Source: Xenophilus sp. E41
GTDB lineage: Bacteria; Pseudomonadota; Gammaproteobacteria; Burkholderiales; Burkholderiaceae_C
Direction: 5' to 3'
Assembly (NCBI RefSeq): GCF_003671765.1
Contig: NZ_QPIB01000001.1
Coordinates: 124,001 to 188,000, forward strand
Length of the DNA: 64,000 nt
Positions 8,357 through 14,618 of the stretch are shown here, piece after piece. Both the position numbers and the translations under genes were made by a program. Under the pieces are notes generated by a model. The model was not told the origin of the DNA. It saw only the letters and a list, made by a program, of their open reading frames with translations, and did no database searches. Each line of letters begins with the position of its first letter. Position 1 is the first letter of the stretch.

Positions 8357-8516
8357 GCTGCGGCGCCACGGTTCGGCGGCGGTCCGTTACCCGAAGCGGT
8401 GTCGATGCCAGTCGCCAATCGCGACAGCCGCGCAGGGACGCCGGCAACGGGCACCGACGCGCGCCCGGCACCCTCGGCACAATGGCCCCGTCCCGTTGAA
8501 AGGAAAGCAAGACACC

Positions 8517-9941
8517 ATGAGCGACAGCAAGAGCGATTTCGGCCTCATCGGCCTGGCCGTGATGGGCCAGAACCTGGTGTTGAACGTGGAAAGCCGCGGC
8601 TTCCAGGTCAGCGTCTACAACCGCACCGCCAGCGTCACCGATGCCTTCGTGGCCAGGAACCCCGGCAAGAAGCTGGTCGGCTGCGACACGCTCGAGGCCT
8701 TCGTGCAGAGCCTGGCCAGCCCCCGAAAGATCATGGTGATGGTCAAGGCCGGCGCGCCGGTCGACCAGGTGATCGAACAACTGATTCCGCTCTTGGAGAA
8801 GGACGACATCGTCATCGACGGCGGCAACAGCCTCTACACCGACACCGAGCGGCGCGACGCCTACCTGTCGGGCAAGGGCCTGCGCTTCATCGGCGCCGGC
8901 GTGTCGGGCGGCGAGGAAGGCGCGCGCAAGGGCCCGGCGATCATGCCCGGCGGTCCCGCGTCCACCTGGGAGGTGATGAAGCCGATCTTCGAGAGCATCG
9001 CCGCCAAGGTCGACGGCCAGCCCTGCGTGATCCACATCGGGCCCGGCGGCGCGGGTCACTACGTGAAGATGATCCACAACGGCATCGAGTACGGCGACAT
9101 GCAGCTCATCTGCGAGGCCTACGCGCTGTTCAAGGCGGCGGGCTTCACGACCGACGAGATGGCGGCCGTCTTCAACCAGTGGAACGAAGGCGACCTGCAG
9201 AGCTACCTGATTCAGATCACCGGCAAGGCGCTGGAGCAGAAGGACCCGGAGACCGGCAAGCCGCTGGTCGACGTGATCCTCGACAAGGCGGGCCAGAAGG
9301 GCACCGGCCAGTGGACATTGATCAACGCGGCCGAACAGGCCGTGGTGATCAGCACCATCAATGCCGCCGTGGAGGCGCGCGTGCTTTCGTCGCAGAAGAA
9401 GCAGCGCGTGGCTGCCAGCAGCGTGCTGCAGGGCCCGACGCCCGCCCTGTCGCTGGAGAAGAAGGCGCTGGTCGACAAGGTGCACGACGCGCTCTATGCC
9501 TCCAAGGTCATCAGCTACACCCAGGGCTTCGACCTGATCAAGACGATGGGCGAGAAGCGCCAATGGGGGCTGGACCTGGGTGGCATCGCGTCGATCTGGC
9601 GCGGCGGCTGCATCATCCGCGCGCGCTTCCTCAACCGCATCACCGAGGCCTACCGCGGCGACGCGTCGCTCGCCAACCTGATGCTCGCGCCCTTCTTCAA
9701 GGAGCTGCTCAACCGCACGCAGCAGAACTGGCGCGAGGTGGTGGCCCTGGCCGTGAGCAACGGCATCCCGGTGCCGGCCTTCAGCGCGTCGCTCGCCTAT
9801 TACGACAGCTACCGCTCGGCCCGCCTGCCGGCCAACCTGCTGCAGGCGCAGCGCGACTTCTTCGGCGCCCACACCTACGAGCGCCTCGACAAGCCCGAAG
9901 GCCAGTTCTTCCACACGGAATGGCCCGAGGTGATCGAGTAA
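8517..9941 (+). CDS. gnd: NADP-dependent 6-phosphogluconate dehydrogenase, decarboxylating
   Basis: Converts 6-phosphogluconate to ribulose 5-phosphate with CO2 and NADPH release (oxidative pentose phosphate pathway). The 474 residues match the long dimeric form. The dinucleotide motif GLAVMGQNL is at the N-terminus with NRT next (NADP-type). The catalytic signature GAGVSGGEEGARKGP, the catalytic Lys in GHYVKMIHNGIEYG, and the C-terminal GLDLGGIASIWRGGCIIR block are all present. AAAGGAAAG 12-20 bp upstream of ATG 8517 is the ribosome-binding site. It stands alone, convergent with the DUF2894 gene 12 bp away. Confidence 0.97.
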   Translation: MSDSKSDFGLIGLAVMGQNLVLNVESRGFQVSVYNRTASVTDAFVARNPGKKLVGCDTLEAFVQSLASPRKIMVMVKAGAPVDQVIEQLIPLLEKDDIVIDGGNSLYTDTERRDAYLSGKGLRFIGAGVSGGEEGARKGPAIMPGGPASTWEVMKPIFESIAAKVDGQPCVIHIGPGGAGHYVKMIHNGIEYGDMQLICEAYALFKAAGFTTDEMAAVFNQWNEGDLQSYLIQITGKALEQKDPETGKPLVDVILDKAGQKGTGQWTLINAAEQAVVISTINAAVEARVLSSQKKQRVAASSVLQGPTPALSLEKKALVDKVHDALYASKVISYTQGFDLIKTMGEKRQWGLDLGGIASIWRGGCIIRARFLNRITEAYRGDASLANLMLAPFFKELLNRTQQNWREVVALAVSNGIPVPAFSASLAYYDSYRSARLPANLLQAQRDFFGAHTYERLDKPEGQFFHTEWPEVIE

Positions 9942-9953
9942 GGCCGCGCAGCG

Positions 9954-10595
9954 TCAGGCCGATTTGCCGCGGCCACGCCCGGACTTGCGCGCCCCGCCGG
10001 CCGTGCCGCGCGGCGCGGGCGCCGGCGCCGCTGCGGCCGCCTGCATCTGCTCCAGGGCCGCGAGCGCGTCCACCCGCGCCATGAAGCGGTGCAGGCAGCC
10101 GGGCGCGACCTCGCGCATGAGCGTGAGCGAGCGGTGCAGCAGGTGCTGCGAATTGAGCGGTCCCGGGTTCTCGGGCAATGCATCCACCGACTGCGAGAGG
10201 CGCCGCTCGGCGCTCAGGCCGGCCCAGACGCGGCGGACGTGCGCGAGCACCTTCGGCTCGGGCATGGCGGCGAGGCCCGCGCCCGGTGGGCTGGGCAGGG
10301 GCGCTTCGCCGCGCGCCGCTGCCTGAGCGGCGAGCCGCGCCGTCAACGCGCCGAGCCCACCGTCCTGAACGTCGACCGCCTGCGGTGCTGCAGCGGCTAC
10401 GGCCGGCGGCTCGAACTCGGCCACCAAGGCGCGAATCCGGACATCGATGCGCGCTCGTGCCTCGCCCTGGTGAAGCGCCGCGCGCCGCGCCATCGCAGCC
10501 ACGAGGCCGAAGCGCAGCGGCTGCGCGACGTCGGCGCCGGCCTGGCGCAGGCGTTCGAGCGCGGGTGCGTGCTCCTCAGCCACGGGTCGGCGCAC
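9954..10595 (-). CDS. DUF2894-type protein, last gene of the motor-like cluster
   Basis: A 213-residue cytoplasmic protein without signal or membrane segment, helical, with low-complexity Ala/Pro linkers (residues ~62-105) and a basic tail of Gly/Arg/Lys (GGARKSGRGRGKSA). It matches what I remember as DUF2894, always found next to DUF3348/DUF802/OmpA genes in Burkholderiales. The GTG at 10595 overlaps the stop of the OmpA-like gene by 20 bp; GTG 10583 is an alternative. The basic tail could contact nucleic acid or membrane. No function is known. Confidence 0.8.
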   Translation of the reverse strand: MRRPVAEEHAPALERLRQAGADVAQPLRFGLVAAMARRAALHQGEARARIDVRIRALVAEFEPPAVAAAAPQAVDVQDGGLGALTARLAAQAAARGEAPLPSPPGAGLAAMPEPKVLAHVRRVWAGLSAERRLSQSVDALPENPGPLNSQHLLHRSLTLMREVAPGCLHRFMARVDALAALEQMQAAAAAPAPAPRGTAGGARKSGRGRGKSA

Positions 10596-11232
10596 CGGGC
10601 TTGGCGGGACGGGGCGTCGGCGCCATCTCGACGCGGCGGTTGCGCGCGCGCCCTTCCGCTTCGGCGTTGGAGGCGACGGCCTGCTCCGAGCCGAAGGCGG
10701 CGGCGAACACCGACGAGGACGGCACGCCCTCCTCGATCAGCGCGCGCGTCACGGTGAGGGCGCGCTGCGCCGACAGCTCCCAGTTGTCGGCGAAGGGCTT
10801 GTTGCCACCGCGCACCTGGCGGTCGTCGGTGAAGCCGCTCACCATGAGGATGTCGTCGCGCGCCTTCAGGTAGGCAGTCAGCGGCGCCGCCAGGCCCTTG
10901 AGCAGTTGCCGGCCCTCGGGCTGCAGCTCGGCCGAGTTGAGCGCGAACAGCACGCTGCCGCTGATGCCGATGCGACCGTCGGTCAGCGTCACGCGCCCGG
11001 CGGCGAGCGGGCCGGCCAGGGCTTCTTCGAGCGTCTTGCGGCGCTGCACCTCGGCCTGGCGTTGCTGCGTCTCGGTCTCCAGCTTTGCGGCGAGTTCGAG
11101 CTGCACGCCCAGCGCACAGACGAGGATCAGCACGAAGGCGCCAAGCAGCCCGGCCATCAGGTCGCCGAAGACGGCCCAGACCGGCACGTCGGATTCGACG
11201 CCGGTCTCGATGTCGATCGCGTCCTGGTGCAT
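10576..11232 (-). CDS. MotB/ZorB-like OmpA-domain stator protein
   Basis: A 218-residue inner-membrane protein with one N-terminal helix (about residues 17-43) and a periplasmic OmpA/MotB-type peptidoglycan-binding domain. The helix begins PVWAVFGDLMAGLLGAFVL; D24 sits where MotB keeps its proton-binding Asp. A short charged linker (50-75) follows. The OmpA domain holds VSGFTDDRQVRGG, NWELSAQRALTVTRALIEEG and GRARNRRVEM. The ATG overlaps the stop of the MotA-like gene by one base (TGATG). Together the two look like an ion-driven A/B stator pair. Confidence 0.87.
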   Translation of the reverse strand: MHQDAIDIETGVESDVPVWAVFGDLMAGLLGAFVLILVCALGVQLELAAKLETETQQRQAEVQRRKTLEEALAGPLAAGRVTLTDGRIGISGSVLFALNSAELQPEGRQLLKGLAAPLTAYLKARDDILMVSGFTDDRQVRGGNKPFADNWELSAQRALTVTRALIEEGVPSSSVFAAAFGSEQAVASNAEAEGRARNRRVEMAPTPRPAKPGAPTRG

Positions 11233-13637
11233 CAGGCCTCGCTGTCGGCGGTGGCGTTGGTGGCGGCGGGTTCGACGCGCGCCGGCGGCCGTGCCGCGAG
11301 CTGCTGCAGGTCGTCGAGGATCTGCTTTTGCGACAGGATGCTCAGGTCCACCACTTCGCGTGCCTGCGCGACGTAGTAGGCCAGCTGCTCGTCGCTGCGC
11401 GCCATGCTCTTGTCCAGCGCACCCTCGATGCGCTGCAGGCTGCCGGTGAGGCGCTCGCTGGCCGAACCGAAGTGCTCGACCGCGGCACCGAAGGCCTCGC
11501 CCAGGCTCGCGACCTCGACGGCACTGCCCGTGACCTGCGCCGACACCGCCGCCAGGCGCTCGCCCTGCGCATCGACCGTCGCCGCGAAGCGACTGCCCTG
11601 CGCGTCGACGGCTTCGGCAAAGCGCTCGCCGGCGCGCTGCAGCACCTCGGACGAGGCGCTCACCAGCGCGTCGATGGCCGCGCGCTGCTCGGTGGAGGCA
11701 TGGTTCACGGCATCGAGCAGCGTGGCCAGCGTGTCGAGGATGCGGGTGCGCTCCTCCAGCATGGCGTTGTCGCGCACCATGCTGTCGGACAGCTTCTGGC
11801 GCAATTCGGCAATGACTTCGGCGGCCGCGCGGGGCGCCTCGGCCGCCGTTTCGACCAGGCGGCCGATCTCGGCGATGGTGCCTTGCGCATGGGCTTCGGT
11901 CTGCGCCGAGATGTCGCGTGCGGTGCGTGCCAGCGTGTCGCAGATCTCGGCCTGCTGCCGCGCGGTCTGCGCACCGGCTTCCTGCCAGCTCGCCTTCAGG
12001 CCATCGGCCAGCTGGGCCAGCGACTGCGTCCAGGCGTCCAGGCGCTGCGTGTCGCGCGCGGCCAGCGTGGTCTGCAGTTCGGCGTGCGCGCGGTCGACGG
12101 TCTGCAGCAGCGCGGCGGCCTGCTCGCCGAAGCCGCCGGCCGCGGCGGCCAGGGCCTGCTCGTTGCGCGCCGCCAGCTGCTCGCCGGCGACGCGCTGCGC
12201 ATCGAGCGCCTCGCTCCAGCGCTGCGAAAGCTGGCCGGCGATGCCGTCCAGGCGCGCCGCCACGCCGTCGACCAGCGCTTCGGAGCGCTGCCCGAACTGC
12301 TCGGTGGCGGCATCGACTGCCGTGCGGTGCTCTGCGGCGGCGCCGTCGACGCTGCGCAGCAGTGCGGCTGCCTGCTGCTCGAAGCTGGCCGCCGCCTGGC
12401 CCAGCGCCTCGCGCGTGTGCAGGGCCAGCGTCTCGCTGGTTTCGCGCTGCTGGTCCAGCGCGCCGCCCCAGGCCTGCGACAGGCGCTCGGCCGTGCCGTC
12501 CAGCCGCTGGGCCACGCCGTCGACGAGCGCTGCGGAGCGCTGGTCGAAGCGTTCGGCCACGCCGGCCAGCATGTCGCGCAATTCGGCGGCCAGCGCCTGG
12601 CTGCCGCGCTGGTGGGTGTCGAGTGCGCCCTGCCAGGTCTGGGCCACGCCGGCGGTGGTGCGCTCGAAGCCGCTCGTCAGCCCATCGAGCTGGCGCTGGA
12701 CCGACTGGCCCAGCGTGTCGTGCAGCGCGCCGGTCTCGCGCGCGATCTGCGCCATGGTGGCCTCGACCACGGGCTGGATGGCCGCGGCCGCGGTCTTCGC
12801 GCTGTCGGTGAGGCTGCGGGTGAGCGACCGGTCCACCGATTCGGCCAGCGCGGTGTAGGCGCCGGCAGCCTGCGCATGGAACTCGGTCTGACCCGCGGCC
12901 AGCCGCTGGGCCAGCGCGTCGTGCTGCTGTTCCATGCGTTCCATCAGCGTCTGCAGGCGCTCTACGATCTGCGGCATGGCCTGCGCCTGCTGCTCCATGA
13001 GCCGGAATCCCTGCTCGCGCTGATGCGCGGCCGAGAAGGGCCGCAGCGTGGTCGCGATGTGCGCATCGAGCGCCAGCGCGGCCTGCGCCCGCTCGCGCCG
13101 GTACAGCGCCGACACCAGCCCCAGCATGGCGGACGCCGCCACGCCCGCCACCGAGGTGCCGAAGGCCAGGCCCAGCCCCTGCACCGGCTGCGACAGGGCC
13201 GAGCGCATGGCCTGCAGGTCGGTCGTGCCGGCAAGCGCGGCGCCGGTGCCGTTGAGCGTGACCACCATGCCGAGGAAGGTGCCCAGCATGCCCAGCAGCA
13301 CCAGCAGGCCGGCCAGGTAGGGCGTCATGGCCGGACCGGGCAGCGCCGCGCGCTGGCCTTCGATGCGCAGGCGCACCGCCGGCCGCAGCGAGGGGTGCAG
13401 CGTCTCGAGCCAGGCGGGCAGGCTGGCCGGCGGCGTGCCGAGCGCGGCCACGGCCTGCCGGAGCGTGGCGGTCGCCTGACGGAAGCGGTGCAGCTCCAGC
13501 GCTCCCATGACGTAGAAGGCAGCGATGACCAGCGTCACGGCCAGCGCGAGCAAGTGGCTGCCGAGGTAGCCGGCGCCGACCCAGGCGATCACGGCCAGGC
13601 CGGCGAGGAATGCGAGAGGAGAAAGGAATCTAGGCAT
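11232..13637 (-). CDS. MotA/TolQ/ExbB-like membrane protein with ~600-residue coiled tail (DUF802)
   Basis: An 801-residue protein. Four membrane helices at about 8-26, 28-48, 104-127 and 152-178; the last two (LLGMLGTFLGMVV and GLAFGTSVAGVAASAMLGL) resemble the proton-channel helices of TolQ/ExbB/MotA. From ~180 to the end it is an Ala/Gln/Glu/Arg-rich helical tail with tandem repeats: FDQRSAALVDGVAQRLDG at 364 and FGQRSEALVDGVAARLDG at 448 (84-residue period), and Trp-centred units at W335, W390, W474 and W551. The start ATG 13637 overlaps the DUF3348 gene by 8 bp. The architecture is that of ZorA, but the partner genes differ. Confidence 0.87.
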   Translation of the reverse strand: MPRFLSPLAFLAGLAVIAWVGAGYLGSHLLALAVTLVIAAFYVMGALELHRFRQATATLRQAVAALGTPPASLPAWLETLHPSLRPAVRLRIEGQRAALPGPAMTPYLAGLLVLLGMLGTFLGMVVTLNGTGAALAGTTDLQAMRSALSQPVQGLGLAFGTSVAGVAASAMLGLVSALYRRERAQAALALDAHIATTLRPFSAAHQREQGFRLMEQQAQAMPQIVERLQTLMERMEQQHDALAQRLAAGQTEFHAQAAGAYTALAESVDRSLTRSLTDSAKTAAAAIQPVVEATMAQIARETGALHDTLGQSVQRQLDGLTSGFERTTAGVAQTWQGALDTHQRGSQALAAELRDMLAGVAERFDQRSAALVDGVAQRLDGTAERLSQAWGGALDQQRETSETLALHTREALGQAAASFEQQAAALLRSVDGAAAEHRTAVDAATEQFGQRSEALVDGVAARLDGIAGQLSQRWSEALDAQRVAGEQLAARNEQALAAAAGGFGEQAAALLQTVDRAHAELQTTLAARDTQRLDAWTQSLAQLADGLKASWQEAGAQTARQQAEICDTLARTARDISAQTEAHAQGTIAEIGRLVETAAEAPRAAAEVIAELRQKLSDSMVRDNAMLEERTRILDTLATLLDAVNHASTEQRAAIDALVSASSEVLQRAGERFAEAVDAQGSRFAATVDAQGERLAAVSAQVTGSAVEVASLGEAFGAAVEHFGSASERLTGSLQRIEGALDKSMARSDEQLAYYVAQAREVVDLSILSQKQILDDLQQLAARPPARVEPAATNATADSEA

Positions 13638-14409
13638 GCGTGAGGGGGGAGCCCACAGCGGGCTGGCGAAGCGCTTCGAGCAGCGCGTCGACCGGTTGAA
13701 ATCGGAAGTCCAGTTCGGCCAGCAGCAAGGCCTGCATGTCCTGGCAGAAGGCGTCGAGCCAGGCGGTGGCGGGCGGCGGCGGCTCGGCGCGCGATTCGGC
13801 CAGGGCAACGGCCTCGGCCGCGGCGCTGCGCAGCCGCTTGAAGTGCGCCTCCAGCGTGGCGGGCACCGTGGCCAGCAAGGTGCGCTCGCGCGCGTCGAGC
13901 ACCTGGCTGAGCACCGCCTCGACCGCGGCCAGTCGCGCCGCCTGGGGCGAACGCGCGGCCAGCCGGCCGCGCAGGCGCGCGCACAGCGCGTCGACACCGG
14001 CTTCCATCGCCTGCTGCCGCGTGAGGTAGCGCTGGCGGTAGGGCGCGAAATCCGTCGCCGGCGGCGCGGGCGTCTCGCCGGGCAGCAACTGGCGTGGCGC
14101 GCGGCCGGGCGCGGCGCTGAGCACGTTGTCGTCGCGGATCGATCGGGCCAGGGCCTGGCGCAGCGCGGCGCACTCGCGCGCGTCCGCATCGGCGGCGGGC
14201 CGCAGTCCCTGCGAGGGCGCCTGCGCTGCAGGCGCATTGAGCACCGCCGACAGCGAGATCGCGTCCGTCCAGCCCAGCCAAAGGCTCAGGCGCTCGACGA
14301 AGGGCAACGGCGCCGCCGGCATGGCCGCGGCGCGTGTGCCTTCGGCCTCGCGCAGCCGCCCGAGGAGGCGGATCAGCGGCGAGTCGGCAAAAGCTGTGCG
14401 CGTGGTCAC
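13630..14409 (-). CDS. DUF3348 family protein, first gene of the motor-like cluster
   Basis: A 259-residue soluble protein. The conserved-looking block FVERLSLWLGWTDAISLSAVL (residues ~35-55) and DFAPYRQRYLTRQQAMEA match DUF3348 from memory. No catalytic motif, signal or membrane helix is visible. GTG 14409 is chosen because AGGA lies 7 nt upstream and the product then starts with the DSPLIRLLGRLRE helix; the frame also extends upstream to 14496 through a MITE-like repeat, which argues against the longer form. It leads a four-gene run with overlaps at every junction, so the products should be made in concert. Confidence 0.82.
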   Translation of the reverse strand: MTTRTAFADSPLIRLLGRLREAEGTRAAAMPAAPLPFVERLSLWLGWTDAISLSAVLNAPAAQAPSQGLRPAADADARECAALRQALARSIRDDNVLSAAPGRAPRQLLPGETPAPPATDFAPYRQRYLTRQQAMEAGVDALCARLRGRLAARSPQAARLAAVEAVLSQVLDARERTLLATVPATLEAHFKRLRSAAAEAVALAESRAEPPPPATAWLDAFCQDMQALLLAELDFRFQPVDALLEALRQPAVGSPLTHA

Positions 14410-14421
14410 GTGGACGTCCTG

Positions 14422-14582
14422 GGGATGCTCTTCACGAATCGAGCGAGCCTGTGGTTGTACGGATCGGGATGGGATGCAAGGCGAAAAACGCAGCAATAGC
14501 TGGCTATTGCGAGGCTTTTCAACGCCGCAGACCGCCCGAGTCCGTGCAAGCGCAGGCCGCGGGCATTTGTGAAGAGCATCCC
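14422..14582. repeat. MITE-like element with 18-bp terminal inverted repeats
   Basis: The left end GGGATGCTCTTCACGAAT (14422-14439) is the reverse complement of the right end (14565-14582) at 17 of 18 positions. Inside, 14473-14530 holds a second near-palindrome centred on CAATAGC-TGG-GCTATTG-like arms with flanking AAAAACG/TTTTCAACG. It has no coding capacity and ends 12 bp upstream of the DUF3348 start. The nested palindrome suggests a mobile non-autonomous element or a large RNA hairpin. Confidence 0.6.
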
Positions 14583-14592
14583 GGCTCCCCAG

Positions 14593-14618
14593 AAAAAACC
14601 GGGCAGTTTAACTGCCGG
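14593..14618 (-). terminator. Intrinsic-terminator-like hairpin on the minus strand
   Basis: On the minus strand CCGGCAGT-TAA-ACTGCCCGG is followed by T6 (A6 at 14593-14598 on the plus strand). No minus-strand gene ends here, so it may insulate or attenuate transcription entering the DUF3348 cluster. Confidence 0.45.

Follow-up and report, generated by a model that had tools for sequence, protein, structure and literature searches.

Passages of Mariano et al. (2025; PMC11890865) describe the ZorAB units of Zorya types I and II as solved motors of 5:2 composition, and report that ZorB D24, the ZorA tail and binding to the cell wall are required in these types. In the passages found in that paper, type III figures only in a locus drawing, a domain list and a taxonomic distribution. 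According to passages of Payne et al. (2021; PMC8565338), type III was named on the basis of 6,401 gene pairs that have both flanking genes, the system of Stenotrophomonas nitritireducens, placed in E. coli BL21-AI, lowers the plaquing of one or more phages, and the DUF3348 and DUF2894 proteins were proposed as regulators of ZorAB. Excerpts of further papers mention type III in other bacteria. It is among the predicted systems of a Variovorax strain, and a 2026 analysis shows high conservation of the system in R. solanacearum. In B. cenocepacia, infection changed only the first one or two Zorya III genes, and the authors left the system off their list of transcriptionally active ones.

We analysed a window, that is, a whole stretch of DNA of 64,000 nucleotides, from Xenophilus sp. 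E41. The original prediction for this window had noticed a four-gene cluster and read it as an ion-driven motor with functionally unstudied partners. Here we place the cluster among the known Zorya systems, and describe variation in the tail of its ZorA protein across relatives.

Assignment of the Operon to Zorya Type III

The four minus-strand genes and their overlaps of 8, 1 and 20 bp were reproduced as predicted:

13630..14409, minus strand: DUF3348 protein of 259 aa with a GTG start (Pfam PF11828, 3.9e-68; PADLOC ZorG3, 2e-74; all-helical in AlphaFold2)
11232..13637, minus strand: ZorA3 of 801 aa, a membrane part of the MotA/TolQ type followed by a long helical tail (Pfam DUF802 in three stretches, 2.5e-34; PADLOC ZorA3, E=0)
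10576..11232, minus strand: ZorB3 of 218 aa, one hydrophobic segment containing Asp24, and a peptidoglycan-binding OmpA domain (Pfam OmpA, 3.8e-19; PADLOC ZorB3, 2.7e-111)
9954..10595, minus strand: DUF2894 protein of 213 aa (Pfam PF11445, 1.9e-35; PADLOC ZorF3, 2.8e-53; all-helical in AlphaFold2)

PADLOC type III models fit all four proteins, those of DUF3348 and DUF2894 included, which rules out a novel system. From these matches, we put the probability that the operon is a member of Zorya type III, with ZorA3 and ZorB3 as its predicted ion-driven motor, at about 0.9. The cluster is already known as a type, and the operon of the window is one more member. The order DUF3348-ZorA-ZorB-DUF2894 on one strand recurred in 110 of 114 loci chosen for the presence of DUF3348, the remaining four comprising three cut by contig ends and one truncated system; an order so conserved points to an arrangement beyond chance. 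One locus, L020 of X. aerolatus E41, encodes a DUF3348 protein identical to that of the window.

The reading of the cluster as a ZorAB-type motor that is driven by ions, has a long cytoplasmic tail and comes with two accessory proteins therefore holds, but the description of the cluster as functionally unstudied does not: PADLOC lists all four proteins as Zorya type III, and passages of Payne et al. (2021; PMC8565338) report phage protection. Strict association with a characterised machine, which had been named as an outcome that would speak against the motor, is in effect what we found; the machine is Zorya, and the motor reading still stands. The names of the two partners differ between sources, DUF3348 being ZorG and DUF2894 ZorF in the PADLOC-DB 2.0 copy and the reverse in passages of PMC8565338 and PMC11890865. 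A full-text literature search returned no mention of DUF802.

Motor Proteins ZorA3 and ZorB3

A profile built from the membrane parts of 26 ZorA3 proteins (that of the window and 25 relatives) matched 8vvn_C, a 696-residue PDB chain of the MotA/TolQ/ExbB type, at 8.7e-8, in line with the TolQ/ExbB/MotA-like character predicted for the second protein. For ZorA, it was ZorA models that matched best, and the Pfam and NCBIfam tables contained no MotA, ExbB or TolQ model. ZorB gave weak PDB matches to 8vvn_B (5.6e-5) and 8qyd_F (0.0032) and stronger ones to MotB domains. From the 696-residue length, we take 8vvn and 8qyd to be probable Zorya entries. Passages of Mariano et al. (PMC11890865) give 696 residues for the type I ZorA of Shewanella.

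Invariant columns of ZorA3 include T120, T127, S162 and S169, which we infer to be candidates for a polar ring. In the third protein, as predicted, a single hydrophobic and putatively transmembrane segment was recognised by eye, with Asp24 in FGDLM, besides the OmpA domain. The F-x-D motif was present in 105 of 111 ZorB3 gene calls; in the other six, the start-codon rule had placed the start just behind it. The tail of the second protein, predicted at about 600 residues, measures 593 between the membrane anchor and the C-terminal anchor. Across 111 ZorA3 tails, the hydrophobic period has a median of 3.67 (quartiles 3.66-3.675), which is the hendecad value of 11/3 and is expected for a long helical bundle.

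By homology with the solved systems, ZorA3 and ZorB3 would form an inner-membrane, ion-driven rotary motor of 5:2 composition, with the OmpA domain of ZorB3 as its anchor to peptidoglycan. An infecting phage that disturbs the envelope would lead ZorB3 to grip the wall; ions could then pass Asp24, and the ZorA3 ring would turn the long helical tail, a putative drive shaft through which a signal or torque would reach both all-helical partners.

Distribution, Site and Neighbourhood

Within the genus, 13 of 15 genomes contain DUF3348; the family sample gave 87 of 299 (one below the cut-off), the order sample 18 of 300 (two weak) and the phylum sample 20 of 398 (one weak). For DUF3348, the matches in G448, G693, G233 and G044, the last HlyD-type by eye, were set aside as weak. 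The near-fixation of the operon in the genus counts against a defence role, in that such core-like spread is equally expected of a housekeeping one: the operon could encode a sedentary Tol-Pal- or Mot-like envelope motor, with phage resistance arising incidentally on over-expression in E. coli. The high conservation in R. solanacearum, as given in the excerpt cited above, fits this alternative, as does the small number of defence genes adjoining. The defence island sought around DUF3348 did not materialise: among 123 neighbours scanned (part of 159 listed, from 42 of 114 loci), seven PADLOC families appeared with one or two proteins each. The 54 other window proteins yielded one protein per PADLOC model for SoFic (8.7e-40), mad3 (5e-18) and PDC-S24 (2.6e-13), and the two scans together rule out a defence-island setting. 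The scarcity of DUF3348 on mobile elements agrees with a sedentary motor as well. A plasmid search with the L087 protein found it in 27 of 72,556 records, each of 366 kb or more, and phage records gave no DUF3348 at E 1e-3, so that plasmid- or phage-borne spread is ruled out as the main mode.

Against a housekeeping motor stands the patchiness at family level seen in the counts above, as do the surroundings of the operon. Of 570 candidate stretches, 482 encoded a relative, and the best 80 of these 482 were taken, giving 79 distinct loci. In the resulting 80 neighbourhoods (79 and the window), the four zor genes formed the four largest clusters, and beyond them no gene cluster was common to more than 24 neighbourhoods; the next clusters, in 24, 19 and 15 loci, were by eye LysR, short-chain dehydrogenase and TctC families. 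Neighbours were partly common within, and occasionally between, related genera; one gene, for instance, recurred in eight loci of three genera. The operon of the window lies between gnd and a glyoxalase gene, which flank it in six and five loci, respectively, of the Xenophilus group.

Two relatives further argue against a fixed envelope function. In the congener G005, the flanking blocks are kept, but the stretch between them (5152-8002 of L174) holds MarR, Rieske and TctC-type genes by eye, at the site where the window has GNAT-exonuclease-gnd-zor. The type III system of G005 itself is on another contig, with a DUF3348 protein 48-52% identical. Since that system is elsewhere and the site is otherwise filled, Zorya III occupies different sites within one genus. 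In L046 (Alcaligenaceae; 10690-13089), the DUF3348 gene is present, but zorA breaks off after some 70 bp and unrelated genes follow, which marks a truncated system. Taking both sides together, we consider a housekeeping motor unlikely.

We also observed that full-length gnd (6-phosphogluconate dehydrogenase; 8496-9941 in the window) occurs in only 6 of the 15 genus genomes, those in which a window-type Zorya adjoins it; the other genomes gave weak partial matches only.

Partner Proteins DUF3348 and DUF2894

The two partner families travel together. Both were present in 86 of 299 family genomes (the overlap of two listings, taken by eye), with DUF3348 alone in one genome, below the cut-off, and DUF2894 alone in three, of which two are 65% and 78% complete and one has a match below the cut-off. 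Among 398 phylum genomes, an identical set of 19 has the two families, with one and three weak extras, respectively. For DUF2894, G185, G640, G699 and G960 were set aside as weak. The DUF2894 model also passed the cut-off in the control genome of Corynebacterium glutamicum, outside the type III lineages found here, possibly a chance helical match.

Each of types I and II has a partner acting on DNA, according to passages of Mariano et al. (PMC11890865), and one of the type III partners could likewise be the counterpart of ZorE or ZorD, as a nuclease or another enzyme of nucleic acids. In favour of this, G145, P146 and P165 of DUF2894 are invariant across 77 sequences, and the consensus has a basic C-terminus. 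However, neither protein matched a nuclease or helicase family in Pfam, NCBIfam or PADLOC, DUF3348 giving a sub-threshold match to MCD_N. The AlphaFold2 models are helical and free of strands: that of DUF3348 is an all-helical bundle of good confidence (pLDDT 85.8, pTM 0.82), and that of DUF2894 is weak in global confidence (pLDDT 74.7, pTM 0.36). The columns invariant among 65 DUF3348 sequences (L16, L41, Q132, R147, L160, A231, E232) form, in our judgement, no obvious catalytic set. With no nuclease family match and helical models for both, we rejected nuclease partners, and regard a role of either protein as a nucleic-acid enzyme as improbable.

We instead favour partners that act as adaptors docked on the tail, which would switch the response without being nucleases themselves. 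Their output might be a cellular effector, recruited or released, or the opening of the motor as a leak. We give this adaptor step, taken alone, slightly under an even chance. Whatever is said here of partner action in type III we infer, while membership of the four proteins, gene order, motor residues and helical models without a nuclease match are established by this analysis.

A Ladder of Tail Lengths in ZorA3

The ZorA tail is required in types I and II, according to passages of Mariano et al. (PMC11890865), and for this reason the variation of tail length in type III is of interest. We measured the tail from the transmembrane Gly to the C-terminal Gln in 111 ZorA3 proteins, from the window and 110 loci (75 of the named set and 35 others; the partial L058 and L064 were dropped, and L046 and L055 lack ZorA). 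Only the proteins of the window and L020 were identical. In 59 of the 111, the length was 498 (31 proteins), 585 (12), 672 (10), 759 (4) or 846 (2), a ladder with a step of 87 residues; the other 52 tails were scattered from 393 to 880. A unit of 88 residues (eight hendecads) is ruled out by the measured step of 87.

An HMM of the unit found exactly one, two, three, four and five copies, rung by rung, in the 59 ladder proteins. In the off-ladder proteins it found none (5 proteins), one (36), two (7) or three (4). The window itself is off the ladder, its tail of 593 residues containing one copy:

11793..12047, minus strand: single 87-residue tail unit, ZorA residues 531-615 (unit HMM, 113.9 bits)

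Within the window's own group, L023 has a tail of 880 residues, compared to 593 in the others, and also a single copy; this is another way of tail lengthening. In four arrays, the hydrophobic period peaked at 3.62-3.625, compared to 3.67 for whole tails, and 87/3.625 corresponds to 24 turns.

Ladder lengths occur mainly in Variovorax, Paraburkholderia, Caballeronia and Cupriavidus; among the 35 loci outside the named set, four are on the ladder, all at 498. We also compared sister pairs, using each locus once. Among the 24 pairs more than 15 residues apart, 14 differed by exactly 87 (9 pairs), 174 (4) or 261 (1) residues, and 10 by other lengths.

Such a ladder could be an artefact of collapsed repeats in assembly, or could reflect a few inherited lengths without repeated gain and loss. 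Many of the source assemblies are drafts, in which a 261-bp repeat can collapse. The extra block was nevertheless 83-93% identical to the neighbouring copy in 10 of 12 pairs (of those 14; best values of 45% and 60% in the other two), rather than identical to it, and records given as complete hold two copies (SBC1 and SBC2) and five (the CH34 megaplasmid, L098). As to inherited lengths, one large-plasmid lineage is constant at 611 residues (13 of the 21 plasmid-borne systems examined out of 27, with a ladder length in only two of the 21). Records of the same species are alike, and no difference in copy number was seen within P. caribensis (3/3 equal), P. largidicola (2/2) or C. metallidurans (2/2). 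Yet a quick tree built without the tail, on which 22 of 56 inner branches are open, requires at least 14 rung changes. Given this count and the diverged copies, both explanations are very improbable.

We tentatively propose that the tail of ZorA3 acts as a drive shaft of modular build, its length set by one to five copies of an 87-residue, 24-turn unit and tunable as a motor trait, a proposal that we consider plausible but less likely than not. Copies would be gained or lost in register, and shaft length might be matched to the distance to the partners or the target. An alpha-helix rises 0.15 nm per residue. Each step would shift the reach by about 13 nm (87 x 0.15 nm) and leave the helical seam intact. 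Relatives whose tails are whole units apart provide naturally occurring variants of shaft length, with which the importance of reach, torque or mere presence of the shaft could be tested.

Leader Motif and Inverted-Repeat Element Upstream of DUF3348

Two features precede the first gene of the operon:

14593..14610, minus strand: conserved leader/promoter motif (TAAACTGC, then a T run)
14420..14584, no strand: element of 165 bp that separates the leader motif from the start of DUF3348, with terminal inverted repeats of 14 bp

The motif was searched for as TA[AG]A[AC]T[GT]C, one to six bases, then TTTT, in the 150 nt that precede the called start of DUF3348. It was present in 82 of 113 loci and absent in 31, one locus (L073 or another) too near a contig end having been left out; its commonest distance was 29-30 nt before the start. 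The 4.35 million strand-bases of the 113 loci contain 83 occurrences in all, the 83rd being that of L020, which is displaced as in the window. The motif is possibly a -10 region followed by a T-rich start. A palindromic operator was rejected, the palindromic form being found in 31 of 113 loci even with a loose pattern, compared to 82 of 113 for the form with the T run. As a conserved leader, the motif offers a starting point for studying how expression of the operon is turned on.

The inverted repeats of the element lie at 14422-14435 and 14569-14582. Copies 77-82% identical occur at three other places in the same genome, one of them partial. L020 also has the element, and the sister loci L021, L022, L023 and L025 lack it.

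Comparison with Known Systems

The window shares all four genes, their families and their order with Zorya type III as described in PMC8565338. It differs in that its species carries the inverted-repeat element between leader motif and first gene, and in having a ZorA tail 593 residues long. The passages found of PMC8565338 do not mention the tail ladder, and neither it nor the leader motif was found in the literature searched, outside which lies Hu et al. (2024), cited by Mariano et al. for Zorya structure. As family-wide features, both look like new additions to what is in print.

With types I and II, as described in passages of PMC11890865, the window shares the ZorA/ZorB motor, the ZorB aspartate (D24 in the solved type I structure, D21 in type II), the wall-binding domain and the long ZorA tail. 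In contrast to them, its partners are the DUF3348 and DUF2894 proteins, replacing ZorC/ZorD or ZorE; PADLOC models of ZorC, ZorD and ZorE had no match among the four proteins (E 1) or among the 54 scanned of the 56 other called window proteins (E 1e-10). The window ZorA is also distant in sequence, reaching 45 bits with the NCBIfam ZorA_1 model, compared to a cut-off of 190.

By their layout, MotAB, ExbBD and TolQR form one motor superfamily with ZorAB. The likeness of the window proteins to them extends to the ZorB matches with solved MotB domains. Unlike these motors, the window system has a long tail of hendecad period and two accessory proteins.
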